From the NCBI GenBank assembly GCA_012838715.1, contig DUOR01000279.1, forward strand, positions 1 through 10,107: DNA of 10,107 bases, given 5' to 3'. Origin of the DNA: Actinomycetales bacterium. GTDB taxonomy: Bacteria > Actinomycetota > Actinomycetes > Mycobacteriales > Mycobacteriaceae. Below the pieces are notes generated by a model, which did not search any database, had not been told where the DNA came from, and worked only from the letters and a program-made list of their open reading frames with translations. This document shows, piece after piece, positions 1 through 10,107 of the stretch; position 1 is the stretch's first letter; every line of letters starts with the position of its first letter. Both the position numbers and the translations under genes were made by a program.

Positions 1-1133
<1,133 letters not shown>

Positions 1134-1145
1134 TTTCCCGGCGGG

Positions 1146-1176
1146 TAGTATTTCTAGGCATCTCGGTGCGAGGAGG
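1146..1176 (+). promoter_or_regulatory. Candidate -10 box and Shine-Dalgarno for the moaB-like gene
   Basis: TAGTAT at 1146-1151 fits the actinobacterial TANNNT -10 pattern and would start a transcript near 1158, giving a leader of about 26 bases. AGGAGG at 1171-1176 is a full-strength ribosome binding site 8 bases before the ATG at 1185, and it fixes that start. No convincing -35 box is visible. The ribosome binding site is secure; the promoter is a guess, since the gene could also be read through from the protease gene. Confidence 0.5.
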
Positions 1177-1184
1177 ATGGCGGA

Positions 1185-1787
1185 ATGGCTGACGTGGACA
1201 TTGCGAACGGTGGGGGCGGCCCGGATCGGGGCGCCGGGTTCGCGGGCGACATGGAGCCCAATGACGAGCATCTGCACGAGATCGAGCGGATGATGGACGA
1301 CTCCGGTGCGCTCCGCGACGACCGTCGCGCGCTGGTGGTGCTGGTCGGCGACCGCACCGCCGAGGACGACCGCACCGGCGACCTCATGGTCGAGCTGCTT
1401 CAGGAGGACGGTTACGGCGTCGACGCGGTCGTGGTGACCCCGTCGGTGAAGGGCCAGATCCGCAAGGCGCTGGAGACCGCGGTCGTCGGTGGCGCCGACC
1501 TGGTGGTCACCGTCGGTGGCGTCGGCGTCGGCCCGCGTGACGTGGTGCCGGAGGCGACGCGCAAGGTTCTCGACCGCCGCCTGTCCGGCATCGAGCAGGC
1601 GCTGCGGGCGTCGGGCCTGGCCGCCGGTTCCGCCGAGGCGGGCCTGTCCCGCGGTCTGGCGGGCGTGTCCGGGTCGACCGTCGTGGTGAACCTGGCCGAT
1701 ACCCGCGCCGCCGTCCGAGACGGCATGGCGACGCTGGGACCGCTGGTCCATCACGTCATCGCGGACCTCGGCCGCTGGCGGGTGTAA
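1185..1787 (+). CDS. moaB2: MoaB/MogA-fold molybdopterin-binding domain protein (MoaB2-like)
   Basis: A 200-residue protein of the MoaB/MogA fold, which in molybdenum cofactor synthesis binds and adenylylates molybdopterin. Residues 48-58 (RALVVLVGDRT) form the first strand. The signature loop VTVGGVGVGPRDVVPEAT spans residues 108-125, and LSRGLAGVSGSTVVVNL lies at 154-170. The first 45 residues are an acidic extension in front of the fold. The classic GGTG motif is GGVG here, as I recall for the mycobacterial MoaB2 branch. A MoaB2 from M. smegmatis has been reported to bind the housekeeping sigma factor, so this branch may do something other than cofactor synthesis; that is recalled knowledge, not shown here. 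No other cofactor-synthesis gene flanks it apart from the degenerate MoeA-like gene at 5512. The start is set by AGGAGG 8 bases upstream. An internal ATG at 1251 lacks such a site. Confidence 0.88.
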   Translation: MADVDIANGGGGPDRGAGFAGDMEPNDEHLHEIERMMDDSGALRDDRRALVVLVGDRTAEDDRTGDLMVELLQEDGYGVDAVVVTPSVKGQIRKALETAVVGGADLVVTVGGVGVGPRDVVPEATRKVLDRRLSGIEQALRASGLAAGSAEAGLSRGLAGVSGSTVVVNLADTRAAVRDGMATLGPLVHHVIADLGRWRV

Positions 1788-1789
1788 CC

Positions 1790-2062
1790 GTGTCGGGGGA
1801 CGGAGGGGGCACCGCTTCGGGTGGGGCCCGGCGGAGTCGGCGGGTGCGCCGGCGGGCCGGGGCCAGGCCGGAGCCGTTCCGGCGGAAGCGGGGACGCGGG
1901 GGCGCTGCCGGCGCTGATTCATCAGGGGCCGGTTCGTTTGGGGCGGGCTCGTTCGGGGCGGGTTCCCCGGAAGGGAAAAACCCCCCACCGGAAGCGCCGG
2001 AGGATCACTCCGGGTTCGATGAGGGGTTTTGGCGGGAGCAGACCCCGCCTCATTGGGGTTAG
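1790..2062 (+). CDS. Small basic, Pro/Gly-rich protein of unknown function
   Basis: A 90-residue reading frame starting with GTG two bases after the moaB-like stop, so probably translated by coupling. I do not recognise a family. The first half is very basic (SRRVRRRAGARPEPFRRKRG), which would suit nucleic acid or membrane-surface binding. Next comes a tandem GAGSF-GAGSF-GAGSP stretch, then a Pro/Glu-rich segment, and finally an aromatic tail ending FWREQTPPHWG. There is no membrane segment and no cysteine. The tail is the least repetitive part and looks like a conserved short motif at the extreme C-terminus, but I cannot confirm conservation. Coding status is supported by its tight spacing to the upstream gene and by the hairpin terminator shortly after its stop. 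In such GC-rich DNA a spurious frame remains possible. Confidence 0.6.
   Translation: MSGDGGGTASGGARRSRRVRRRAGARPEPFRRKRGRGGAAGADSSGAGSFGAGSFGAGSPEGKNPPPEAPEDHSGFDEGFWREQTPPHWG
1925..1969 (+). repeat. Three tandem 15-base units
   Basis: Units at 1925-1939, 1940-1954 and 1955-1969 all begin GGGGCSGG and are in frame with the small gene at 1790, encoding GAGSF, GAGSF and GAGSP. The third copy is diverged at its 3' end. A multiple-of-three unit keeps the frame when copy number changes. Confidence 0.8.
1977..2030 (+). other. Nested inverted repeat near the 3' end of the small gene
   Basis: AAAACCCC at 1977-1984 is complementary to GGGGTTTT at 2023-2030. Between them lies a perfect hairpin, CCGGAG (1997-2002) with CTCCGG (2008-2013) around a 5-base loop. 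The structure is inside the coding sequence, so it could be chance or an RNA structure affecting decay or termination. Confidence 0.35.
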
Positions 2063-2093
2063 CGTGGGCGGGTTCGCCGCGCCATCGCCCCGT

Positions 2094-2117
2094 ACGGCCC
2101 GGCTGCGGCCGGGCCGT
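2094..2117. terminator. GC-rich hairpin between convergent genes
   Basis: ACGGCCCGGC (2094-2103) and GCCGGGCCGT (2108-2117) form a perfect 10-base-pair stem around the loop TGCG. It lies between the stop of the + strand small gene (2062) and the stop of mscL on the - strand (2132). Being symmetric, it could terminate both transcripts. There is no strong T-run on either side, so it would be a U-poor actinobacterial-type terminator. Confidence 0.6.
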
Positions 2118-2131
2118 TGGCGTCGTTGGGC

Positions 2132-2569
2132 TTAGACGCCGTCGACGTTCTTGTTCAGCTCGGTGTCCGGGGTGCCGGACTGCTTGGCCAGCAGGTCGCG
2201 GATCTCGGTGAGCAAGTCGGCCTCGGTGACCTCTTCCTCGGCGGGGGTCTCCAGCTTGGCTTCACGCATCTGGTTGAACTTGTTCATCGGGGCGACGATG
2301 ACGAAGTAGACGACGGCCGCGACGAGCAGGAAGTTGATGGCCGCGGAGATGACGGAGCCGAAGTCCAGGAAGGTGGACGGTTTGTCCGCCAGGATGCGGA
2401 AGCCGAGGCCGTCCGCGGCGTTGGCGCCGCCGACGGAGTTGATCAGCGGCTGCATCAGGTTGTCGGTGAAGGCCGTCACGATGGAGGTGAACGCTGCGCC
2501 GATCACGACACCGACCGCCAGGTCAATGACGTTGCCGCGCATGATGAATTCCTTGAAGCCTGCGAGCAT
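2132..2569 (-). CDS. mscL: Large-conductance mechanosensitive channel MscL
   Basis: A 145-residue MscL, a homopentameric channel that opens under membrane tension to release solutes during hypo-osmotic shock. The family start FKEFIMRGNVIDLAVGVVIG is present at residues 5-24, with the first membrane helix continuing to about residue 42 and carrying the small residues that line the gate. The second helix is VISAAINFLLVAAVVYFVIV (about 73-92). A charged cytoplasmic helix with TEIRDLLAKQ follows. Length is normal (family about 130-150). The ATG at 2569 has AAAGGA on the - strand (2575-2580) five bases upstream. It is transcribed toward the hairpin at 2094 and is preceded by an unusually AT-rich region of 203 bases, where its own promoter should lie. 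Confidence 0.97.
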   Translation of the reverse strand: MLAGFKEFIMRGNVIDLAVGVVIGAAFTSIVTAFTDNLMQPLINSVGGANAADGLGFRILADKPSTFLDFGSVISAAINFLLVAAVVYFVIVAPMNKFNQMREAKLETPAEEEVTEADLLTEIRDLLAKQSGTPDTELNKNVDGV

Positions 2570-2605
2570 GCTTGTCCTTTCGTCGCAGTGAAGCTTTCAG
2601 CAAAC

Positions 2606-2654
2606 AAGATATCGGTTGCCACGTCACTGATTACATTATTGGGGGCAACGTCAC
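2606..2654 (-). promoter_or_regulatory. Possible mscL promoter region with ACGTCAC direct repeats
   Basis: On the - strand TATCTT (complement of 2606-2611) and TAATGT (complement of 2633-2638) both fit a TANNNT -10 box. The + strand heptamer ACGTCAC occurs at 2621-2627 and again at 2648-2654, 27 bases apart, embedded in GCCACGTCAC and GGCAACGTCAC. The repeats sit where an activator or repressor of mscL could bind. No good -35 box is seen, and which -10 is used cannot be decided. Confidence 0.35.
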
Positions 2655-2690
2655 ATATCGGAGTGGGGTTTCGGGGGTGAACGGTTTTCC

Positions 2691-2738
2691 TGACCTGCGG
2701 TGACCCGTGAAATGCGGTCACCTCCTGGTCATTTGACC
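2691..2738. promoter_or_regulatory. Cluster of five TGACC/GGTCA half-sites forming nested palindromes
   Basis: TGACC occurs at 2691, 2701 and 2734, and its complement GGTCA at 2716 and 2727, five copies in 48 bases. GGTGACC (2699-2705) and GGTCACC (2716-2722) form a perfect inverted repeat with a 10-base spacer, and the outer TGACC/GGTCA pair extends it. GGTCA-TT-TGACC (2727-2738) is a second palindrome. It lies between the SAF gene stop and mscL, both on the - strand. It could be an operator array, or the larger hairpin could end the SAF transcript, although no T-run follows. Confidence 0.45.
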
Positions 2739-2772
2739 TTGTCAGGGGCGTAACCGGGCGTTTTATCGGCCG

Positions 2773-3528
2773 TCATCCGGACAGCACGAGCGTCAGCGGC
2801 AGCTCGAGGCCGGCCGCCGCGACCGTCGCTGCGGCGCCATCGCCGAGGGCGAGCAGGACGACGCCGTCGTCGTCGGTGAGCACCACCCGCGCACCGCGCG
2901 CGACGGGCCGGGAGGAACCGGCGTCGTGGCCGGCGGCCAGCACGTCGACGACGTCACCGGTGCGCAGCAGCGGCACGAGGCCGGTGTCGCGCGGCGTGAC
3001 GGCGACGATGTTCGCGTCGTCCGCCCCGGTCAGCGCCTCCGCGAGGCGGGGGCCGGCGAACCGCGGTTCGGTGAGCGCCTCACCGCGGGTGAGGGGCCCC
3101 GCCGGGAGCTTTCCGACGACCGCTTCGGCGTCCCGGAACGCCTGGTCGGGGACGTGGTCCTCCGGGGTCATGCGGATGGCGATGTCGGCGGCCTCGATTG
3201 CCCGGCCGGATTCGACGTCCCGGGCGGCGACGACGACGGGCACCGTCCCGGACTCCGGGCGAACCATGTCGGCGACGGCAATCGTCGCGGCCGCGGCGAC
3301 CAACGCGACCGCGAGCAGTCGACGCAGCCTGCGGGGAGGGAAGCGGCGGGACCGGACGGACCGGAATCGGGCGCGGGGAGATGACGGGGATGAAGAGGCG
3401 AACCGGGACGAGGAATGGGGGAGTTCCGGTGACCGAGTCGTCCGTGGGTTCCGTGCCGTCCGCGCGCCCCATGTTTGCCGTGCGCCCCGCACGCCCCGCG
3501 CTTGCCGTGGTCCCGAAAGTGCCGCCAT
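2773..3528 (-). CDS. CpaB/RcpC-like SAF-domain membrane protein
   Basis: A 251-residue protein with a very basic, disordered leader (residues 1-70), one membrane helix (LLAVALVAAAATIAVADMV, about 71-89) and an outside SAF domain (about 97-157: VPVVVAARDVESGRAIEAADI to LTRGEALTEPRF). A small beta-rich C-terminal domain follows (VTPRDTGLVPLLRTGDVVDVL). SAF-domain proteins of the CpaB type assist secretion or assembly of surface structures such as Flp pili, but no pilus genes lie nearby, so the role here is open. The start is uncertain. I chose the ATG at 3528, which has GGAGAG two bases upstream. An in-frame ATG at 3609 would add 27 Arg/Gly/Pro-rich residues, and a GTG at 3492 would shorten it. 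No start lies between 3492 and the membrane helix, so the basic leader is at least 58 residues long. It is probably downstream of the cyclo-ligase gene in the same direction. Confidence 0.75.
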   Translation of the reverse strand: MAALSGPRQARGVRGARQTWGARTARNPRTTRSPELPHSSSRFASSSPSSPRARFRSVRSRRFPPRRLRRLLAVALVAAAATIAVADMVRPESGTVPVVVAARDVESGRAIEAADIAIRMTPEDHVPDQAFRDAEAVVGKLPAGPLTRGEALTEPRFAGPRLAEALTGADDANIVAVTPRDTGLVPLLRTGDVVDVLAAGHDAGSSRPVARGARVVLTDDDGVVLLALGDGAAATVAAAGLELPLTLVLSG

Positions 3529-3612
3529 TGCTCTCCGCCCGCCCCGTCCGATCGAATGGTGGGGCCGCGTCGTCGGCCCCGGTGGTCGGGCCGTGTGGTT
3601 GGCCCGCATGTC

Positions 3613-3631
3613 GCCGCCCTGTTCGGGCGGC
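3613..3631. other. Seven-base-pair hairpin between cyclo-ligase and SAF genes
   Basis: GCCGCCC (3613-3619) and GGGCGGC (3625-3631) flank the loop TGTTC. It lies in the 179-base gap between the cyclo-ligase stop and the chosen SAF start. It might attenuate or end the cyclo-ligase transcript. The rest of this gap is GC-rich, with other short palindromes (for example GGCCGG at 3661 with CCGGCC at 3680), and shows no clear promoter. Confidence 0.35.
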
Positions 3632-3707
3632 CCGTCACCGGGTTAGACGCGGGCGGGGCGGGCCGGGTTCCATCGGATTCCGGCCGGGTGCACGCCCCGG
3701 TGGAGAA

Positions 3708-4427
3708 CTATCGCCGGGCCTGGCCGTCGGCGGTGAGGACGGCGTCGACGGGAAGGTCGTGGGCGTCGTGGGGTACGGCGTCGAGGACCTCGCCGGGGTG
3801 GAGCAGCAGCGCGGTGCGTCCGGTGGCGTGGGCGAGGGAGCGGTCGTAGTAGCCGGCGCCCCGGCCCATCCGCATGCCGGCGACGTCGCCGGCGAGGCCG
3901 GGGACGAGGATGACGCCGGCGCGGGCGATGACCCCGGCGCCCAGGAGGGGGCCGACCGGTTCGGGCAGCCCGTACTTTCCGGGCGCCAACTCCCCGGTGT
4001 ACTCGGCCCAGTCGAGGGCCGTCGGCGGGCCCGGCGGGCACACCGGCAGCAGCAGGCGCACGCCGGGGAGCCGTTCGGTGAGGGCCGCGAGCAGGGCGTC
4101 CGGGAAACCGGAACCCGCGTCGGTGCCGATGGTCGCGTCGGTCGCCTCGTCGATGCCGATGGCCGCGTCGGCAGCCTCGTCGATGCCGATGGTCGCGCCG
4201 GGCTCCGTGTCGATGGGGACGTGCGCCGCGACGACGGGATTCGGTGCGTCGGCAAGCGAATCGGCGACCCACCGCACCACCTCGTGGAGCAGGCCCGCGT
4301 CGTGCCGGGCGCGCACGTCGACGCCGAGGCGGGAGCGGCGGGCGAGGATCCGCCGACGCAACTCCGGCTTCGGCAACGACCCGTCGAAGTCGTGCCCCAA
4401 CCCACCGTCCGGCGCGTGATTCCCCAT
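3708..4427 (-). CDS. 5-formyltetrahydrofolate cyclo-ligase
   Basis: A 239-residue cytoplasmic enzyme that uses ATP to convert 5-formyl-tetrahydrofolate to 5,10-methenyl-tetrahydrofolate in folate salvage. Seen in order: the N-terminal basic helix KPELRRRILARRSRL (20-34), PIDTEPG (71-77) on the substrate side, LLLPVC (125-130), KYGLPEP (151-157), and the diagnostic glycine-rich loop GMRMGRGAGYYDRSL (184-198). The normal family length is near 190-200. The excess comes from a 17-residue N-terminal extension and a roughly 30-residue tandem-repeat insertion (about 78-106) placed right after TEPG. The ATG at 4427 has no ribosome binding site but has a -10 box 7 bases upstream, suggesting a leaderless transcript. 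The gene is divergent from galU, as Rv0992c is from Rv0993. Confidence 0.93.
   Translation of the reverse strand: MGNHAPDGGLGHDFDGSLPKPELRRRILARRSRLGVDVRARHDAGLLHEVVRWVADSLADAPNPVVAAHVPIDTEPGATIGIDEAADAAIGIDEATDATIGTDAGSGFPDALLAALTERLPGVRLLLPVCPPGPPTALDWAEYTGELAPGKYGLPEPVGPLLGAGVIARAGVILVPGLAGDVAGMRMGRGAGYYDRSLAHATGRTALLLHPGEVLDAVPHDAHDLPVDAVLTADGQARR
4120..4209 (-). repeat. Three tandem 30-base units inside the cyclo-ligase gene
   Basis: Units at 4120-4149, 4150-4179 and 4180-4209 share a TCG-RTGCCGATGGYCGCGYCG core, read on the + strand. On the coding strand they give the ten-residue repeats IGIDEAADAA, IGIDEATDAT and a decayed IGTDAGSG. The unit is a multiple of three, so the frame is preserved. 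Confidence 0.85.
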
Positions 4428-4434
4428 GTCGGCG

Positions 4435-4440
4435 ACACTA
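4435..4440 (-). promoter_or_regulatory. -10 box of the cyclo-ligase, leaderless start
   Basis: On the - strand TAGTGT is followed by exactly seven bases and then the ATG at 4427. A transcript starting about seven bases after the -10 begins at or next to the A of ATG. There is no ribosome binding site, which fits leaderless translation, common in actinobacteria. No -35 match. Confidence 0.65.
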
Positions 4441-4476
4441 CCCCGCGGCCTCCACGGGAGGGGGCGTCGGACTGGG

Positions 4477-4482
4477 TAGGGT
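4477..4482 (+). promoter_or_regulatory. -10 box of galU, leaderless start
   Basis: TAGGGT is followed by seven bases (4483-4489) and then the ATG at 4490, the same geometry as the divergent cyclo-ligase promoter. No ribosome binding site precedes the ATG. The two -10 boxes are 36 bases apart, back to back. Confidence 0.65.
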
Positions 4483-4489
4483 GGCGCCC

Positions 4490-5512
4490 ATGACCACTCC
4501 CAACGACGACTCCAAGCCCACCGCCCGCCGTACGGCGCGGACGGTGATCGTGCCCGCGGCGGGAATGGGCACCAGGTTTCTCCCCGCCACGAAGACGGTG
4601 CCGAAGGAACTGCTGCCGGTCGTGGACACCCCCGGCATCGAGATGATCGCCGAGGAAGCGGCGGCGTCCGGCGCCGACCGGCTGCTCGTCGTCACCGCGC
4701 CGAGCAAGGACGGGGTGCTGGGGCACTTCGACGCGCGCCCCGACCTGGAGGAGACCCTCCACGAACGCGGCAAGGACGACATCGCCGCGAAGGTGCGCCG
4801 CGCGACCGAGGTCATCGGGGTGTCGAGCGTCGTGCAGGACAAGCCGCTGGGGCTGGGCCACGCCGTGCTGATGGCCGAGCCGGAACTCGCCGACGACGAG
4901 GATGCGGTGGCCGTCATGCTTCCCGACGACCTCGTCCTGCCGGTGGGCGTCATGGAGCGGATGGCCGCGGTGCGGGAGGAGTTCGGCGGTTCGGTGCTGT
5001 GCGCGCTGGAGCTGCCGCGCGAGGAGGTCTACAACTACGGCGTCTTCGACATCGAGGAGCCGGCCGAAGGTGCCGACGGCGCCGCCGCCGCCGACGTCAA
5101 GCGCGTCCGCGGCATGGTGGAGAAGCCCAGCCCGGAGGAGGCGCCGTCGACGTTCGTCGCCGTGGGCCGCTACCTGCTGGACCGGGCCATCTTCGACGCG
5201 CTGCGCCGCATCGACCGCGGCAAGGGCGGCGAGTACCAGCTCACCGACGCCATCGAGTTGCTCATCCGCGAGGATCACCCGGTGCACATCGTCATCCACG
5301 ACGGTTTCCGCCATGACCTGGGCAACCCGGGCGGCTTCATCCGCGCGTGCGTCGACTTCGGCCTGCGCGACCCGAACTACGGCCCCGGCCTGCGCCGCTA
5401 CCTGGAGCGCCGCATCACCGAGGGCGACGAGCCGCTGACCATGGACGGCACCTGCGACGGCACGGGCAACACCGCCGCAGGCGCGAGGGGTGAAGGGACC
5501 GGCGAGGGCTGA
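4490..5512 (+). CDS. galU: UTP-glucose-1-phosphate uridylyltransferase
   Basis: A 340-residue GalU, which makes UDP-glucose from UTP and glucose-1-phosphate for cell-wall polysaccharides, trehalose and other glycosides. The nucleotidyl-transferase signature is complete: PAAGMGTRFLPATK at residues 22-35 and VPKELLPVVD at 37-46. Further family motifs are LPDDLVLP, YNYGVFDIEEP, VEKPSPEEAPST, GRYLL and GGEYQLTDAI. The last 25 residues are a Gly/Thr-rich tail without known function. The ATG at 4490 was chosen over frames open further upstream because the conserved domain begins about 20 residues later and because the -10 box sits 7 bases before it. Its stop overlaps the next start (TGATG at 5510-5514), so galU and the MoeA-like gene are co-translated. 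Confidence 0.97.
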   Translation: MTTPNDDSKPTARRTARTVIVPAAGMGTRFLPATKTVPKELLPVVDTPGIEMIAEEAAASGADRLLVVTAPSKDGVLGHFDARPDLEETLHERGKDDIAAKVRRATEVIGVSSVVQDKPLGLGHAVLMAEPELADDEDAVAVMLPDDLVLPVGVMERMAAVREEFGGSVLCALELPREEVYNYGVFDIEEPAEGADGAAAADVKRVRGMVEKPSPEEAPSTFVAVGRYLLDRAIFDALRRIDRGKGGEYQLTDAIELLIREDHPVHIVIHDGFRHDLGNPGGFIRACVDFGLRDPNYGPGLRRYLERRITEGDEPLTMDGTCDGTGNTAAGARGEGTGEG

Positions 5513-6801
5513 TGCGCTCGGTCGAGGAGCAGCTGGCGACGATCACCGCCAACGCGGCGATGCCGGCCCCGGTGCGCATCGCCATTTCCGAGTCGTTGGG
5601 GCTGCTCTGCGCCGAGGACGTGGAGGCGGAGCGGCCGCTGCCGGGGTTCGTGCAGTCCGCGATTGACGGGTACGCGGTGCGTGCGGTGGACGTGCGGGGC
5701 GACTCCCCGGATGCCGCGGCGCCCGCGGGCGGCGTGCGGTTCGCGGCGGATTCGCGCATCGATTTCCACGAGGTGCAGCTGCCCGTCGTCGGCGAGGTGA
5801 CGGCCGGTTCGCACCATCCGCTGCGCCTGCAGCCGAAGCAGGCGGTGCGCGTGCACACGGGGGCGCCGTTGCCCACGCTTGCCGACGCCGTGCTGCCGCT
5901 CGATTGGACCGACCGCGGCGAACGCCGCGTGACGGCGTTGCGCCCCGTGCGTTCGGGTGATTTCATCCGCCGCGTCGGTGACGACGTGCAGCCCGGTGAC
6001 GTGGCGGTGTCCGCGGGCGCCGTGATTTCCCCGGCGCAGGTGGGCCTGCTGGCGGCGGTCGGCCGGTCGAAGGTGCTGGTGCACCCGCGGCCGCGGATGT
6101 CCGTCATCTCCATTGGCGCGGAGCTGGTCGACATCGACCGGGATCCGGGCCTGGGCCAGGTTTTCGACGTCAACTCCTACGCACTGGCGGCCGCCGGCCG
6201 TGACGCGGGGGCGGAGGTCCACCGCGTGGGCATCGCCGCCGGTGAGCCGCGCCGCATCCGCGACATCATCGAGGGCCAGCTGATCAAGTCGGAGGTGCTG
6301 GTCATCACCGGCGCCGTCGGCGGGGCGGCCGGCGAGTCCGTGCGCCGTGTGCTGGCGGAGCTCGGCGAGGTCGACGTCGGGCGCGTCGCCATGCACCCGG
6401 GTTCGGTGCAGGGCTTCGGCCTGCTCGGCGATGACCGCGTGCCCACCTTCCTGTTGCCGTCGAACCCCGTCTCGGCGCTGGTCGTCTTCGAGGTGATGGT
6501 CCGGCCGCTCATCCGCATCGCGCTGGGCAAGTCGAACCCGCGCCGCCGCACCGTCGCCGCCCGCGCCATCGGGCCGGTGGAGTCGGTGCCGGGCCGCCGC
6601 GGATACATCCGCGGCCAGCTCATGCGCGACCGCGAGACCTCCGAGTACCTGGTGCAGCCGCTGGGCGGCGCCGGCGGCGCGCAGGCGCACCTGCTGGCCG
6701 GCCTGGCCGAAGCGAATTGCCTGGTGGTCGTGCCCGACGAGGTCGACCACGTCCGCCCGGGCGACGTCGTCGACGTGCTGTTCCTGGCCCGCCAGTCCTA
6801 G
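5512..6801 (+). CDS. glp: Gephyrin-like MoeA homologue (Glp)
   Basis: A 429-residue protein with the full MoeA/gephyrin-E architecture: domains I/II (FVQSAIDGYAV at 46-56, VHTGAPLPTLADAVLP from 114), the MoaB-like domain III (about 190-340) and the C-terminal domain IV (about 345-429). MoeA inserts molybdate into molybdopterin. Here the motifs of that reaction are altered. The usual GGVSxGExD stretch reads TGAVGGAAGESV (266-277), the KPGKP loop reads HPGSVQGFG (295-303), and PGNPVS reads PSNPVS (316-321). In C. glutamicum the homologue encoded next to galU is Glp, reported to bind FtsZ and the membrane receptor GLPR at the septum. Gene order (galU, this gene, rimJ-like, membrane receptor) supports the same identity here. 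It is also orthologous by position to mycobacterial moeA1 (Rv0994). Translation is coupled to galU by a one-base overlap. A residual cofactor role cannot be excluded. Confidence 0.88.
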   Translation: MRSVEEQLATITANAAMPAPVRIAISESLGLLCAEDVEAERPLPGFVQSAIDGYAVRAVDVRGDSPDAAAPAGGVRFAADSRIDFHEVQLPVVGEVTAGSHHPLRLQPKQAVRVHTGAPLPTLADAVLPLDWTDRGERRVTALRPVRSGDFIRRVGDDVQPGDVAVSAGAVISPAQVGLLAAVGRSKVLVHPRPRMSVISIGAELVDIDRDPGLGQVFDVNSYALAAAGRDAGAEVHRVGIAAGEPRRIRDIIEGQLIKSEVLVITGAVGGAAGESVRRVLAELGEVDVGRVAMHPGSVQGFGLLGDDRVPTFLLPSNPVSALVVFEVMVRPLIRIALGKSNPRRRTVAARAIGPVESVPGRRGYIRGQLMRDRETSEYLVQPLGGAGGAQAHLLAGLAEANCLVVVPDEVDHVRPGDVVDVLFLARQS

Positions 6802-6820
6802 CTTCCGCGACGGTGTCCCC

Positions 6821-7456
6821 ATGGTGATCCGTTCGCAGCGGCTGATCGTCCCCGCCGGCGTCGTCCGCCTGCGCCCGCTGTCCCGCGACGATCACGGGGA
6901 GTGGCGCCGCATCCGGATGGCAGACGCGGAGGTCCTGCGCCGCGTCGAGCCGACCACCGGCGGCGACTGGGACGAGGAGCATTCGCGCCGGAACTTCCGG
7001 GCGATGCTGCGCCGGAACCGGGCCGCCGAGAACACCGGCGTCGGCGCGGTCGCGGCTATTGAACTCGACGGCGACTTCGTTGGGCAATTGACGCTCGGCG
7101 GCATGCGGCCCTTCCCGGAGTCCTGCTGCTGGGCGGGCTACTGGGTGTCGTCGGAGCATTGGGGCGGGGGAGTGGCCACCGCCGCGCTGGCGCTGGCGTG
7201 CGACCACGCGACCGCACTGGGGCTGCGGCGCATCGAGGCCACCGTCCTCGCCGCCAACGACGGCTCCCGGAAAGTCCTGGAACGCTGCGGTTTCCGCGAA
7301 ATCGGCGTGGCCCGCGAACTGTTCCACATCGACGGCGCGTGGCGCGACCACGTCGTCCTCGACCGGCTCGCCGACGGCCCCGGGGGCGGGGCCGCGGTGG
7401 ATCGGCTCGTGTCGTCGGGTTTCGCGCGTCGGCAAGCGGCGGACCCGGGGGAATAA
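6821..7456 (+). CDS. rimJ: RimJ/RimL-type GNAT N-acetyltransferase
   Basis: A 211-residue GNAT-fold enzyme that transfers an acetyl group from acetyl-CoA, in this subfamily typically to protein N-termini. RLIVPAGVVRLRPLSRDDHGEW opens the fold. GYWVSSEHWGGGVATAALALA (from about residue 106) is the acetyl-CoA pyrophosphate loop in the RimJ form, and NDGSRKVLERCGFREIGVARE is the usual C-terminal alpha/beta segment. The fold ends near HVVLDRLADG, and about 30 extra Gly/Ala-rich residues follow. It begins 19 bases after the Glp stop. No good ribosome binding site is seen, and GTG at 6824 is a near-equal start. Its position between glp and the receptor gene matches Rv0995. The substrate is unknown; whether it acetylates a division protein is speculation. 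Confidence 0.85.
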   Translation: MVIRSQRLIVPAGVVRLRPLSRDDHGEWRRIRMADAEVLRRVEPTTGGDWDEEHSRRNFRAMLRRNRAAENTGVGAVAAIELDGDFVGQLTLGGMRPFPESCCWAGYWVSSEHWGGGVATAALALACDHATALGLRRIEATVLAANDGSRKVLERCGFREIGVARELFHIDGAWRDHVVLDRLADGPGGGAAVDRLVSSGFARRQAADPGE

Positions 7457-7517
7457 GCGGGCGGCAACCGGCGGATCCCGCACGGCGTGGCGGGGCCGGA
7501 AGCGACCATCCGCGGTT

Positions 7518-7589
7518 TAGTGTTGACGGGAAACCCATGCCAGGTCGGGGAAGGGCCTGCCACCAGGGAAAGTACCCAACCACAGGAGG
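7518..7589 (+). promoter_or_regulatory. Candidate promoter and ribosome binding site of the receptor gene
   Basis: TAGTGT at 7518-7523 fits a -10 box and would start a transcript near 7530 with a leader of about 70 bases. AGGAGG at 7584-7589 lies 10 bases before the ATG at 7600 and sets that start. The 143-base gap after the acetyltransferase gene is otherwise without features. The site is strong for translation; the promoter is tentative, but it would let the receptor be expressed apart from glp. Confidence 0.5.
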
Positions 7590-7599
7590 AATCCCGGAC

Positions 7600-9033
7600 A
7601 TGTCGAGCTCTCTGCTCCTCGTGCTCATCGTCGTGGTGTGGCTGTTCGTGCTCGCGCCGCTGGTGGTCAACACCAGGGAGCCCATCCGCCGCACCTCGGA
7701 GGGACTGGGCCGTACCCGGCTGCTGCACCGCGGCGGCGAATCCGTGCCCACGCGGCGCCGCCGGCCCGCACTGTCCGAGCGTGACATCCGCCGCGGCGAC
7801 GACGACGCCGACGAATCGCTGGAGACCGTCGACGCCGAGTACGCGAACTTCGACGACGAGGATTCGATCCTCATCGACGACACCGGCCGCGCGCCCGCCG
7901 ACGAGACCCCGCCCGCCGTCGTCGAGGGCGACGTCGTCTACGAGCTGGAGGCAGGCGCGTCCGGTTCCGGCGACGCCACCGCCGACGCCGACCGCGTCGA
8001 CGTCGACCAGGACGGCGAGCTCATCGGCGACGCCGACCTGACCGGCGACCGCGACCCGGCCGGCGAGCATTCCGACGAGGTCCCGGCCATCGCCGCCGAG
8101 GGCATCGACGGTGACGTGGTCGCCGCCGGTGACTCCGGCGCTTCCGATGCTTCCGATGTTTCCGGTGAGGCCGCGGAACTGCGCAAGGCCGGCGCCATTG
8201 GCGGTGGCCGGGTCGGTTCGGGCGTCTCCGCGGACGCCGCCCGCGGCGAGGACGCCCGCGCGTACCTCACCCCGGAGGACTTCCTCCTCATCGACGAGCC
8301 CGCCGCCGCGATTGACGGGTCCGACGCCGCCGACGCACAGGCCGACGCCGCGAACGCGGACGCCGACGTCGATGCGGTCGCCGGCGACGCGGACGACGCC
8401 GCCTTCGTGGACAAGGCGAGCGAGGCGGACACCGCCGCGGACGCTGAACTTGACGCCGACGCCGAGCTTGACGCGGACGTTGACGCTGAGCTTGACGCCG
8501 AGATGGATTCCGATGCCGACGCCGACGGCGCCGTCGCGGCGGACCGGGGCGACGAACTGTCCGACGAGCTGACCGACGACGACCTGAAGTTCGCCGAGCG
8601 ACGCCGCGGCCGCGGCGGCTTCGACCCCGAGGCCGACGCGCGCTACGCGGAGACCCGCTACGCCCGCCGCCGCCGCAGCGTCGGCGCGCTGGCCGTGGTC
8701 ATCGCGGTGTCGGTGGTCATCGGCCTGCTGGTCGGTGGTTGGGCCTGGTGGCTGCCGCTGGCCGGCGTCGGCCTGATGGTCCTGTACCTCGTGTACCTGC
8801 GCCGCACGGTCATCGCGGAGAACGAGCTGCGCGCCCGCCGCATCCGCCGCATGAAGATGGCCCGCCTGGGCGTCCGCAACCGCGAGGACGAGGAGCTCGG
8901 CATCCCCGAGCGGCTCCGCCGCCCCGGCGCCGTCGTCGTCGAACTGGACGACGAGGACCCCGAGTTCGCCGACCTGCCCTACGCCACCTACGAAACCCCC
9001 GAAGAGGACCTGCGCCGCGCGGCCGGCGCGTAG
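7600..9033 (+). CDS. glpr: Glp membrane receptor (GLPR)-like protein with long acidic linker
   Basis: A 477-residue membrane protein. Residues 4-24 form one membrane helix (SLLLVLIVVVWLFVLAPLV), followed by a basic stretch (TRRRRP) that predicts a cytoplasmic position for what comes next. Residues about 60-355 form a very acidic Ala/Asp/Glu-rich linker without predicted fold. RRRRSVGAL then leads into two closely spaced membrane helices (about 361-381 and 383-402) and a charged cytoplasmic tail ending PEEDLRRAAGA. Position, topology and the upstream MoeA-like gene match GLPR, the receptor reported in C. glutamicum to recruit gephyrin-like Glp and connect the divisome to the polar elongation protein Wag31; Rv0996 is the positional mycobacterial counterpart. 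The linker carries two copies of ED-x-[IL]-L-I-D-[DE] (residues 87-94 and 226-233) and several tandem DNA repeats. The start is fixed by AGGAGG at 7584. Binding to Glp is inferred from context. Confidence 0.82.
   Translation: MSSSLLLVLIVVVWLFVLAPLVVNTREPIRRTSEGLGRTRLLHRGGESVPTRRRRPALSERDIRRGDDDADESLETVDAEYANFDDEDSILIDDTGRAPADETPPAVVEGDVVYELEAGASGSGDATADADRVDVDQDGELIGDADLTGDRDPAGEHSDEVPAIAAEGIDGDVVAAGDSGASDASDVSGEAAELRKAGAIGGGRVGSGVSADAARGEDARAYLTPEDFLLIDEPAAAIDGSDAADAQADAANADADVDAVAGDADDAAFVDKASEADTAADAELDADAELDADVDAELDAEMDSDADADGAVAADRGDELSDELTDDDLKFAERRRGRGGFDPEADARYAETRYARRRRSVGALAVVIAVSVVIGLLVGGWAWWLPLAGVGLMVLYLVYLRRTVIAENELRARRIRRMKMARLGVRNREDEELGIPERLRRPGAVVVELDDEDPEFADLPYATYETPEEDLRRAAGA
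8131..8166 (+). repeat. Four 9-base units in the receptor linker
   Basis: GACTCCGGC, GCTTCCGAT, GCTTCCGAT and GTTTCCGGT follow one another in frame, encoding DSG-ASD-ASD-VSG. Two units are identical, which suggests recent slippage. Confidence 0.7.
8440..8499 (+). repeat. 18-base tandem repeat encoding DAELDA in the receptor linker
   Basis: Copies lie at 8440-8457, 8458-8475 and 8482-8499, with a 6-base GACGTT between the second and third. Each encodes DAELDA and carries the Leu codon CTT, rare in DNA this GC-rich, in the same place. That pattern points to duplication of one unit rather than selection on each codon. Confidence 0.8.
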
Positions 9034-9042
9034 CGGCCACGG

Positions 9043-9087
9043 CGACGGCCCCGGGGCCGTCGGCAAGCGGAGCCCGGCGCCGACGGC
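9043..9087 (+). other. Overlapping, mutually exclusive hairpins after the receptor gene
   Basis: Bases 9043-9062 form a perfect 20-base palindrome. Its right arm also belongs to GCCGTCGGC (9056-9064), which pairs perfectly with GCCGACGGC (9079-9087). CGACGGC at 9043-9049 and again at 9081-9087 thus compete for GCCGTCG at 9056-9062. Either fold could end the receptor transcript; neither has a T-run. It lies 9 bases after the stop codon. Confidence 0.5.
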
Positions 9088-9127
9088 GAGAACGCACCAA
9101 CGGCGAAATAGTCCCCACCAGCGGATT

Positions 9128-9155
9128 TTGGCCCGCTGGCGGGGGCTGTTACTAT
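9128..9155 (+). promoter_or_regulatory. Promoter of tRNA-Ala
   Basis: TTGGCC (9128-9133) and TACTAT (9150-9155) are separated by 16 bases and form the clearest -35/-10 pair in the window. Transcription would start near 9162, leaving a 5' leader of about 54 bases to be trimmed before the tRNA. Confidence 0.65.
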
Positions 9156-9215
9156 TACGGACGTTGCAGACGCGGCCCGGTACCTTCGCCGGAACCCGGG
9201 ACGTGTTCTGCGCGC

Positions 9216-9291
9216 GGGGCTATAGCGCAGTTGGTAGCGCGTCTCGTTCGCATCGAGAAGGTCAGGGGTTCGATTCCCCTTAGCTCCACCA
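9216..9291 (+). tRNA. tRNA-Ala, anticodon CGC, CCA encoded
   Basis: The cloverleaf folds completely. Acceptor GGGGCTA pairs with TAGCTCC, the D stem is GCGC/GCGC, the anticodon stem TCTCG/CGAGA holds the loop TTCGCAT with anticodon CGC (reads GCG), and the T stem AGGGG/CCCCT holds TTCGATT. The third acceptor pair is G-U, the identity mark for alanyl-tRNA synthetase. The discriminator is A at 9288 and CCA is genomically encoded at 9289-9291. Confidence 0.97.
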
Positions 9292-9314
9292 TCGGCATCC
9301 GGGTGCCGTTTGCG

Positions 9315-9351
9315 AAGGGTCTTTCCGAAGGGGTTCGGAAGGGCCCTTTTT
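9315..9351 (+). terminator. Intrinsic terminator of tRNA-Ala
   Basis: AAGGGTCTTTCCGAA (9315-9329) pairs along its full 15 bases with TTCGGAAGGGCCCTT (9334-9348), including three G-U pairs, around a GGGG loop. The right arm runs into TTTTT (9347-9351). It is the only U-tailed terminator in the window and sits 24 bases after the tRNA. Confidence 0.9.
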
Positions 9352-9370
9352 CGCGTTCCGGGCGACCCGC

Positions 9371-9376
9371 TATCCT
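9371..9376 (+). promoter_or_regulatory. -10 box of the DoxX-family gene, leaderless start
   Basis: TATCCT is followed by seven bases (9377-9383) and then the ATG at 9384, the same spacing as at galU and the cyclo-ligase. No ribosome binding site is present. It lies directly after the tRNA terminator, so the gene needs its own promoter. Confidence 0.65.
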
Positions 9377-9383
9377 TCCAAGC

Positions 9384-9788
9384 ATGGACCGACCCGCCGT
9401 GCGCGATGGAGCGCTGCTGATTCTCCGCCTCATCCTCGGCGTCATCTTCATCGCCCACGGCTGGGACAAGATCTTCGTCACCGGCGTGGACAAGACCACC
9501 GGATATTTCGTGGCGGCGGGCATCCCGCAGGCCGAGCTGACCGTGTGGCTCGTCGCCATCGTCGAGCTCATCGGCGGCGCCCTGCTCATCCTCGGACTGC
9601 TGGCCCCGGCGGTGTCGGCGGTGCTGGTCATCGAGATGCTGGGGGCACTGTGGGCCGTGCATTGGGGGAATGGCCTGTTCATGCGGGACAATGGCGCGGA
9701 ACTCGTGCTGTCGCTCATCGGTGGCCTGATCATGGTGGTCGCGTTCGGTTCCGGGCGCGCCAGCCTGGACCGGGTGTTCACCCGATGA
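9384..9788 (+). CDS. DoxX-family integral membrane protein
   Basis: A 134-residue four-helix membrane protein of the DoxX family. Helix 1 is LLILRLILGVIFIAHGWDKI (9-28), with the family's R...G...G..K spacing. Helix 2 is LTVWLVAIVELIGGALLILG (about 53-72), with the conserved E-x2-GG. Helix 3 is AVSAVLVIEMLGALWAVHWG, and helix 4 ELVLSLIGGLIMVVAFGSG. The mycobacterial DoxX is reported to form a complex with superoxide dismutase and SseA in oxidative-stress defence; most family members have no assigned role, so I give none. The ATG at 9384 was chosen because the -10 box lies 7 bases upstream and the frame to its left crosses the tRNA. The anti-sigma-like gene follows 42 bases after the stop, so the two may share a transcript. 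Confidence 0.9.
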   Translation: MDRPAVRDGALLILRLILGVIFIAHGWDKIFVTGVDKTTGYFVAAGIPQAELTVWLVAIVELIGGALLILGLLAPAVSAVLVIEMLGALWAVHWGNGLFMRDNGAELVLSLIGGLIMVVAFGSGRASLDRVFTR

Positions 9789-9830
9789 CCGCGGCGGCCG
9801 CGGGCCCGACATCGAGCGTGGGAATGGGAC

Positions 9831-10107
9831 ATGGACTGTGAAGAGGTGCGCGCCGCACTGTCGGCGCGCCTGGACGGCGAGCCCTCGGGGCATGACGACG
9901 ATGTCGTCGACGCCCACCTCGACGCCTGCGACGACTGCCGCGCGTGGTTCGAGAAGGCCGTCGCCCTCAACCGCTCCCTTCTGATGGGCCCCGCCCAGGG
10001 CGCCGCGACGCCCGACTTCAGCGACCTTTCCGAACGCATCCTGTCCACCGTCGAGCCGGAGCGCCGCCGCCGCGAACGCACCTGGTTCATGGTGACCGGC
10101 GGCGCCC
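9831..10107 (+). CDS. zf-HC2 (anti-sigma-factor-like) zinc-finger protein, 3' end outside window
   Basis: The first 92 residues of a protein that starts MDCEEVRAALSARLDGE and carries H-x3-C-x2-C (HLDACDDC, residues 29-36). With Cys3 this makes the four-ligand zinc site of zf-HC2/ZAS anti-sigma factors, which hold an ECF sigma factor at the membrane until a signal such as oxidation releases it. After a Pro/Glu/Arg-rich stretch (PERRRRERTWF) the frame leaves the window where a membrane helix would be expected. The ATG at 9831 is the only start after the in-frame stop of the DoxX gene. The ribosome binding site is weak (GGGA 2-5 bases upstream). No sigma-factor gene is visible in the window, so the partner is unknown; it may lie to the right. 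It could also be a zinc-finger protein with another role. Confidence 0.82.
   Translation, partial: MDCEEVRAALSARLDGEPSGHDDDVVDAHLDACDDCRAWFEKAVALNRSLLMGPAQGAATPDFSDLSERILSTVEPERRRRERTWFMVTGGA

Follow-up and report, generated by a model that had tools for sequence, protein, structure and literature searches.

The window analyzed here is a stretch of 10,107 nucleotides (contig DUOR01000279.1 of assembly GCA_012838715.1, positions 1 to 10,107). Its plus strand carries glp, encoding a gephyrin-like repurposed MoeA protein, and one gene apart from it glpR, encoding a three-helix membrane receptor. The locus is a well-identified member of the known Glp-GlpR cell division system. Open reading frames and family matches bear out the originally predicted gene order galU, MoeA homolog, GNAT enzyme, three-helix membrane protein. 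The features needed for the argument are the following (TM, transmembrane helix; IDR, intrinsically disordered region; pI, isoelectric point; pLDDT, predicted local distance difference test):

5512..6801, plus strand: glp, gephyrin-like repurposed MoeA, 429 residues (NF045515, 582 bits; best PDB match 8bve/8bvf)
6619..6651, plus strand: FtsZ-binding hairpin in Glp domain IV, LMRDRETSEYL, residues 370-380 (360-370 in Corynebacterium glutamicum; alignment with 8bve)
6821..7456, plus strand: GNAT acetyltransferase gene between glp and glpR (PF13302, 81 bits)
7600..9033, plus strand: glpR/sepX, three-helix membrane receptor, 477 residues (NF045516, 285 bits; profile position 1 at base 7600)
7606..7674, plus strand: GlpR TM1, residues 3-25 (hydropathy, AlphaFold)
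7678..8670, plus strand: GlpR IDR1, acidic loop between TM1 and the TM2-TM3 hairpin, residues 27-357 (pI, mostly low pLDDT)
8671..8805, plus strand: GlpR TM2-TM3, residues 358-402 (hydropathy, AlphaFold)
8806..9030, plus strand: GlpR IDR2, C-terminal tail, residues 403-477 (68/75 and 69/75 residues identical in two sister species)
8947..8976, plus strand: DDEDPEFADL motif, GlpR residues 450-459, proposed Glp dock (motif counts below)

Glp scored 582.1 bits with the NCBIfam model NF045515 (Glp_gephyrin; cut-off 475) and 321.9 bits with the actinobacterial MoeA model MoeA_actino (NF050098), below its cut-off of 560. Among solved structures the best match is C. glutamicum Glp (Cgl0883; 8bve, 8bvf) with 614 bits for 8bve, compared with 144-147 bits for the E. 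coli MoeA chains and at most 132 bits for gephyrin chains. In the alignment with C. glutamicum Glp, which had been suggested as a check and like the profile scores favors Glp, 288 of 417 aligned residues are identical. The two proteins have the family, the domains and the hairpin LMRDxETxxYL in common, and domain II of the window protein is longer by about ten residues. According to the consulted part of PMC10522489, FtsZ is contacted by V338, L360, M361, R362, Y369, L370 and F414 (C. glutamicum numbering). All seven are identical in the window Glp. They are nearly invariant in an alignment of 115 sequences (114 Glps and C. glutamicum), where the most frequent residue at each of these positions accounts for 110 to 115 of them. 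Two contacts depart: L343 is replaced conservatively by Ile, at a position that holds L, V or I and once M in this set, and A364, a backbone contact at a variable position, by Arg. The prolines P18, P20, P192 and P194, invariant in 26 Glps, lie where the same part of that paper sets the domain I/III borders and would correspond to its proline-rich hinge boxes. The predicted model of the Glp monomer was poor (pLDDT 51.6).

GlpR scored 285.2 bits with NF045516 (cut-off 160); it lies above the cut-off of SepX_GlpR_1 and below those of SepX_GlpR_2, 3 and 4. Since position 1 of the family profile aligns at base 7600, the ATG there is the likely start, not the TTG further upstream that opens the mechanical reading frame. 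AlphaFold and hydropathy agree on the three membrane helices that the original prediction had assigned (TM1 at about residues 3-25 and a helical hairpin at 343-422). The mean pLDDT is 58, mostly above 80 in the helices and below 60 in most of the remainder. C. glutamicum GlpR (Cgl0885) shares the three helices, the acidic IDR1, the C-terminal IDR2 and the position one gene from glp. With both curated families above cut-off, the high identity to C. glutamicum Glp, the conserved FtsZ hairpin and a single intervening gene, the assignment of the pair as Glp and GlpR is upheld. It is very likely that the two proteins are a bona fide divisome module with the general mode of this system, a judgment that does not extend to the part of GlpR on which Glp docks.

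To see which parts of GlpR are conserved, 46 Corynebacterium sequences were aligned (besides the window GlpR, those of 15 named loci and of the 30 loci with the highest scores, a few species being present twice; L009, L012 and L058, with no clear TM1 or no match, were left out). The best conserved parts are TM1, the membrane-near region around TRLLHRGG, the juxtamembrane RGG[FWY]DP and RRPGAVVxExDDxxPDF in the tail. Among the disordered stretches the C-terminal motif DDxxPxFxxL is the best conserved one: in 38 GlpRs D450, D451 and L459 are invariant, and P454 and F456 are kept in at least 90%. A wider set covered the order with 106 GlpRs, taken from 76 of the 82 sources (six had no match) and, in addition, from the 30 best-scoring Corynebacterium loci. 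The pattern D[DE][DESG][DS][PA]xFxxL occurs within the last 110 residues of 105 of them, nowhere earlier in any, and in none of 21200 shuffled GlpR tails. The core is PxF in 103 of these tails and AxF in two; the lone protein without the pattern has PDW. Charge is not a constant of the tail. IDR2 of the window has a pI of 4.89, compared with 10.87 in C. glutamicum (PMC10522489, consulted part), so the basic tail described there is absent. Across the 46 Corynebacterium proteins the pI of IDR2 spans 4.7-11.1, and because only 20 of the 46 exceed 8, a basic IDR2 is no criterion for the family.

This motif is reminiscent of the C terminus of FtsZ (e. g. DDDLDVPDFLR). FtsZ tails from 39 Corynebacterium genomes have PxF in 33 cases, PxW in five and another ending in one, and all 14 tails from other genomes of the order have PxF (G017, G033 and ten further listed genomes fall outside these counts). 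As far as PMC10522489 was consulted, Pro438 and Phe440 of FtsZ sit on the Glp hairpin in the C. glutamicum structure, deletion of the hairpin abolishes binding to both FtsZ and GlpR, and GlpR without IDR2 partly phenocopies the loss of Glp. Since hairpin-less Glp fails to bind GlpR, GlpR is predicted to carry an element that uses an overlapping site. On the grounds of the likeness to the FtsZ tail, the effect of the hairpin deletion and the IDR2 phenotype, the tail motif is our tentative candidate for the Glp dock, possible rather than probable. It would be a small candidate for the Glp-GlpR interface and would bear on the connections among FtsZ, Glp, GlpR and Wag31.

The mechanism could then be as follows. 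Glp would dimerize and hold the C-terminal peptide of FtsZ on the domain IV hairpin, as demonstrated in C. glutamicum. GlpR would anchor Glp at the membrane, the anchor being the FtsZ-tail-like motif DDxxPxFxxL bound at the same or an overlapping Glp site. The two sites of one Glp dimer would be shared by FtsZ and GlpR or contested between them. IDR1 would be a variable acidic loop bearing a few short conserved islands, and no tether tuned by its length. What the computation shows is the identity of the two proteins, the conserved FtsZ groove, the tail motif and the presence of Glp and GlpR in genomes lacking moaA and moaC matches; binding and competition, as well as the function of the former catalytic pocket discussed below, are what we infer.

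Several observations weigh against the tail as the dock. The motif has no hydrophobic residues at the places of FtsZ Leu435 and Val437, and hence the likeness is partial. No co-variation of GlpR tail and FtsZ tail was found; four sources (L002, L003, G001, G056) keep PDF in GlpR where FtsZ has PxW. In a class-wide search with a SepX/GlpR model the motif was present in only one of 30 loci, from the family of the window, and absent from 29, of which 28 are outside the order and one inside. Since 29 of the 30 do not reach that model's cut-off, it is unsure whether they are orthologs. Rather than Glp, the partner of IDR2 may be Wag31 or something else. That the motif serves a partner other than Glp, e. 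g. Wag31, SepF or a lipid, and resembles the FtsZ tail by chance, has in our view a probability only a little short of even. It would account for the partial likeness and for the missing co-variation in the clade of the window. Furthermore, Wag31 is a binding partner of C. glutamicum GlpR, and the consulted part of PMC10522489 maps neither the Glp site nor the Wag31 site on GlpR. The failure of hairpin-less Glp to bind GlpR argues against it.

The SepX/GlpR-like proteins outside the order (L206-L234 except L224) often share a different tail, roughly WxPVPVPxPTYxTKPxA. It may be a docking motif of their own.

Relatives of the window have FtsZ C termini that depart from the usual DLDVPxF: NDLPEWGF in three (L117, L119, L149), DGLDLPGWA in two (L147, L148) and DGLGLPGFL in one (L150). 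The FtsZ tail of the two nearest relatives ends with LPGWA, unlike the VPxF of C. glutamicum. SepF or other partners of the FtsZ tail may have adapted to these changes. Met at Glp position 370 occurs in three of 114 Glps, which come from exactly the three genomes whose FtsZ ends with NDLPEWGF. This pairing fits a maintained contact between Glp and FtsZ. As these genomes are close relatives, it could also go back to a single event, which lessens its support for the proposed mechanism. The assembly of the window itself, a draft of 480 contigs that is 87.7% complete, yielded no ftsZ match. Since the other 60 of the 61 genomes searched have one, a gap in the assembly is the most likely cause.

According to the original prediction, GlpR carries a strongly enlarged acidic linker whose length may set how far Glp reaches from the membrane. 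The long acidic loop is real: IDR1 has 331 residues, a pI of 4.05 and a net charge of -64. In C. glutamicum IDR1 comprises residues 27-218, i. e. 192 residues, with the same pI (PMC10522489, consulted part); the cytoplasmic placement of IDR1 is likewise taken from print. Enlarged it is thus in comparison with C. glutamicum and not in comparison with the genus. The loop has 329 and 336 residues in the sister species and ranges from 167 to 354 in Corynebacterium loci (hydropathy-based). The matched GlpR span is 461 residues in the window, with a median of 357 and a maximum of 481 among the 149 Corynebacterium matches listed, five of which are at least as long. The remaining 52 of the 201 genomes comprise the window's own, G196, which has no match, G075, whose match is partial, and the genomes whose matches were not listed. 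Because the 149 matches were ranked by score, and because the match is split in two in several of the unlisted genomes, as in the window, the count is more likely to miss long loops than to inflate them. The length was therefore dropped as an exceptional feature.

The claim about reach found no support, because the spacers vary, several Rhodococcus that carry Glp and GlpR have an IDR1 of only about 100 residues, a conserved dock candidate lies in the tail, and IDR1, which runs into the membrane at either end, is no free tether. The spacer residues 121-215 are the least conserved part of GlpR even among sisters (22/84 and 11/48 aligned residues identical in the two sister species). Imperfect repeats of 18 and 12 bases in the loop DNA (8436-8502) suggest that IDR1 grew by slippage. 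The same module could nevertheless work with Glp docked on an island of IDR1, e. g. the juxtamembrane FAERRRGRGGFDP or AYLTPEDFLLIDE, and with loop length tuning its reach. The islands speak for this, since RGG[FWY]DP ahead of TM2 is found in all 46 Corynebacterium GlpRs and in 85 of 106 across the wider order set, and so does the wide variation of IDR1 length. The poorly conserved spacers and the short loops of Rhodococcus speak against it, as does the link of Glp function to IDR2 in C. glutamicum (PMC10522489, consulted part). We regard this variant, docking on IDR1 with a reach set by loop length, as unlikely.

A second question is whether Glp keeps an enzymatic role. It is left open in print (PMC11733289, consulted part). 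Bacteria with Glp are said there to carry at least two copies of moeA, and PMC10522489, in the part consulted, says so of "most" actinobacterial genomes. We searched 201 Corynebacterium genomes, the window's own and 200 that are at least 90% complete. Matches for MoaC and MoaA turned up in one and the same set of 128; the remaining 73, the window's own among them, gave no match for moaC or moaA. Each of these 73 genomes has exactly one MoeA-family gene. Of the other 128, G149 likewise has a single one and the remaining 127 carry between two and four. Roughly one in three of the sampled Corynebacterium genomes thus breaks the rule of at least two moeA copies. Glp was found above cut-off in 198 of the 201 genomes and GlpR in 200, and both are retained in 73 of the 73 genomes without the molybdenum cofactor (Moco) genes. 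The three genomes without a Glp above cut-off, judged by E-value (G106, G149, G196), are all MoaC-positive. G106 has five matches (best E 3.6e-122), none above the Glp cut-off, and G196, which also accounts for the missing GlpR, is 90% complete. A loss of Glp in G149, where GlpR is kept, was considered and withdrawn, as the fetched stretch is partly N and an absence cannot be read from it.

The window's own genome gave no match for moaC, moaA or a second MoeA-family gene, at 87.7% completeness and with ftsZ missing as well. We infer that Moco synthesis was lost in this host, and its Glp most likely no longer serves it. A Glp tree of 34 Corynebacterium sequences (12 from Moco-less genomes, 22 from genomes with Moco; a non-random choice of those with retrievable coordinates) and four outgroups requires at least seven switches of the Moco state, six of them forced by well-supported branches. 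Presumably these are losses, a reading that refers to the Glp tree rather than to a species tree. In a literature search without supplements we found, in the parts of the papers covered, no report of Glp being kept in such single-MoeA, Moco-less genomes. These genomes are a natural test of a possible enzymatic role of Glp.

A MoaB/MogA-like gene (1185-1784, plus strand; PF00994, 73.6 bits) lies near glp, in a genome without detected moaA or moaC. Like glp, it may be left over from Moco synthesis and now serve a different purpose.

The former catalytic site shows a mixed picture. Relative to E. coli MoeA, the HMMER alignment has D187, D228, K275, K279 and S371 changed and D259 replaced by Glu; D59, T100, R137, D142, E188, P298, P301 and R350 are retained. 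We take these residues, including the two lysines, to have catalytic roles in MoeA; the aligned E. coli chain carries Q at 279, presumably the engineered K279Q. The predicted alteration of catalytic motifs therefore applies to the first six positions and not to the other eight. In 115 of 115 Glps K275 is R and K279 is H (window residues 291 and 295), so these positions are fixed and do not drift; the equivalents of D142, E188, P298 and R350 never vary. The 12 Glps of this set that come from genomes without Moco genes show the same fixed pattern. Some positions of the pocket thus drift while others are fixed, unlike the blanket description of the site as poorly conserved by Megrian et al. (PMC11733289, consulted part). 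A still working molybdotransferase with a secondary role in division would explain the retained equivalents of D59, T100, R137, D142, E188, P298 and R350, but is highly improbable, given that the protein scores as Glp and far below the MoeA_actino cut-off, that its own genome (87.7% complete) and 72 further ones (at least 90% complete) have no moaC, moaA or second MoeA-family match, and that R and H stand at the lysine positions throughout.

A joint reading of these results, which we consider rather doubtful as a whole, is that Glp was freed from Moco metabolism several times within Corynebacterium. The remnant pocket, near-invariant even where no molybdopterin pathway is detectable (D59, T100, D142, E188, P298, R350; R and H for K275 and K279), may hold a different ligand through which the scaffold is gated. 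The GlpR tail would be a mimic of the FtsZ tail, and Glp would be passed between FtsZ and its receptor as the two compete for a single groove.

The Glp-GlpR pair itself is already known, and the length of its loop is unremarkable for the genus. Streptomyces SepX, a divisome protein with three transmembrane segments and two disordered cytoplasmic regions (PMC8748795, consulted part), resembles the window GlpR in architecture by this description; the NCBIfam name SepX/GlpR covers both. The E domain of eukaryotic gephyrin and the glycine receptor GlyR likewise combine a MoeA scaffold, a membrane receptor and a partner of the tubulin family, yet gephyrin uses another binding site in domain IV (PMC10522489, consulted part).

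The closest Glps are those of a Corynebacterium metagenome-assembled genome and of C. halotolerans, each with 88% identity in the best segment. On the strength of this Glp identity the host belongs to Corynebacterium, close to C. halotolerans. The plus strand of the window opens at base 3 with the gene of an HtrA-like protease with trypsin and PDZ domains. The MoaB/MogA-like gene is followed by a minus-strand block of mscL, a SAF-domain gene and a 5-formyltetrahydrofolate cyclo-ligase gene. Then comes the plus-strand block of galU, a nucleotidyl transferase gene named by its position, glp, the GNAT gene, glpR, a tRNA-Ala (9216-9291, plus strand), a DoxX protein gene and a zinc-finger protein gene. 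The stop codon of galU (5510-5512) overlaps the ATG of glp at base 5512.

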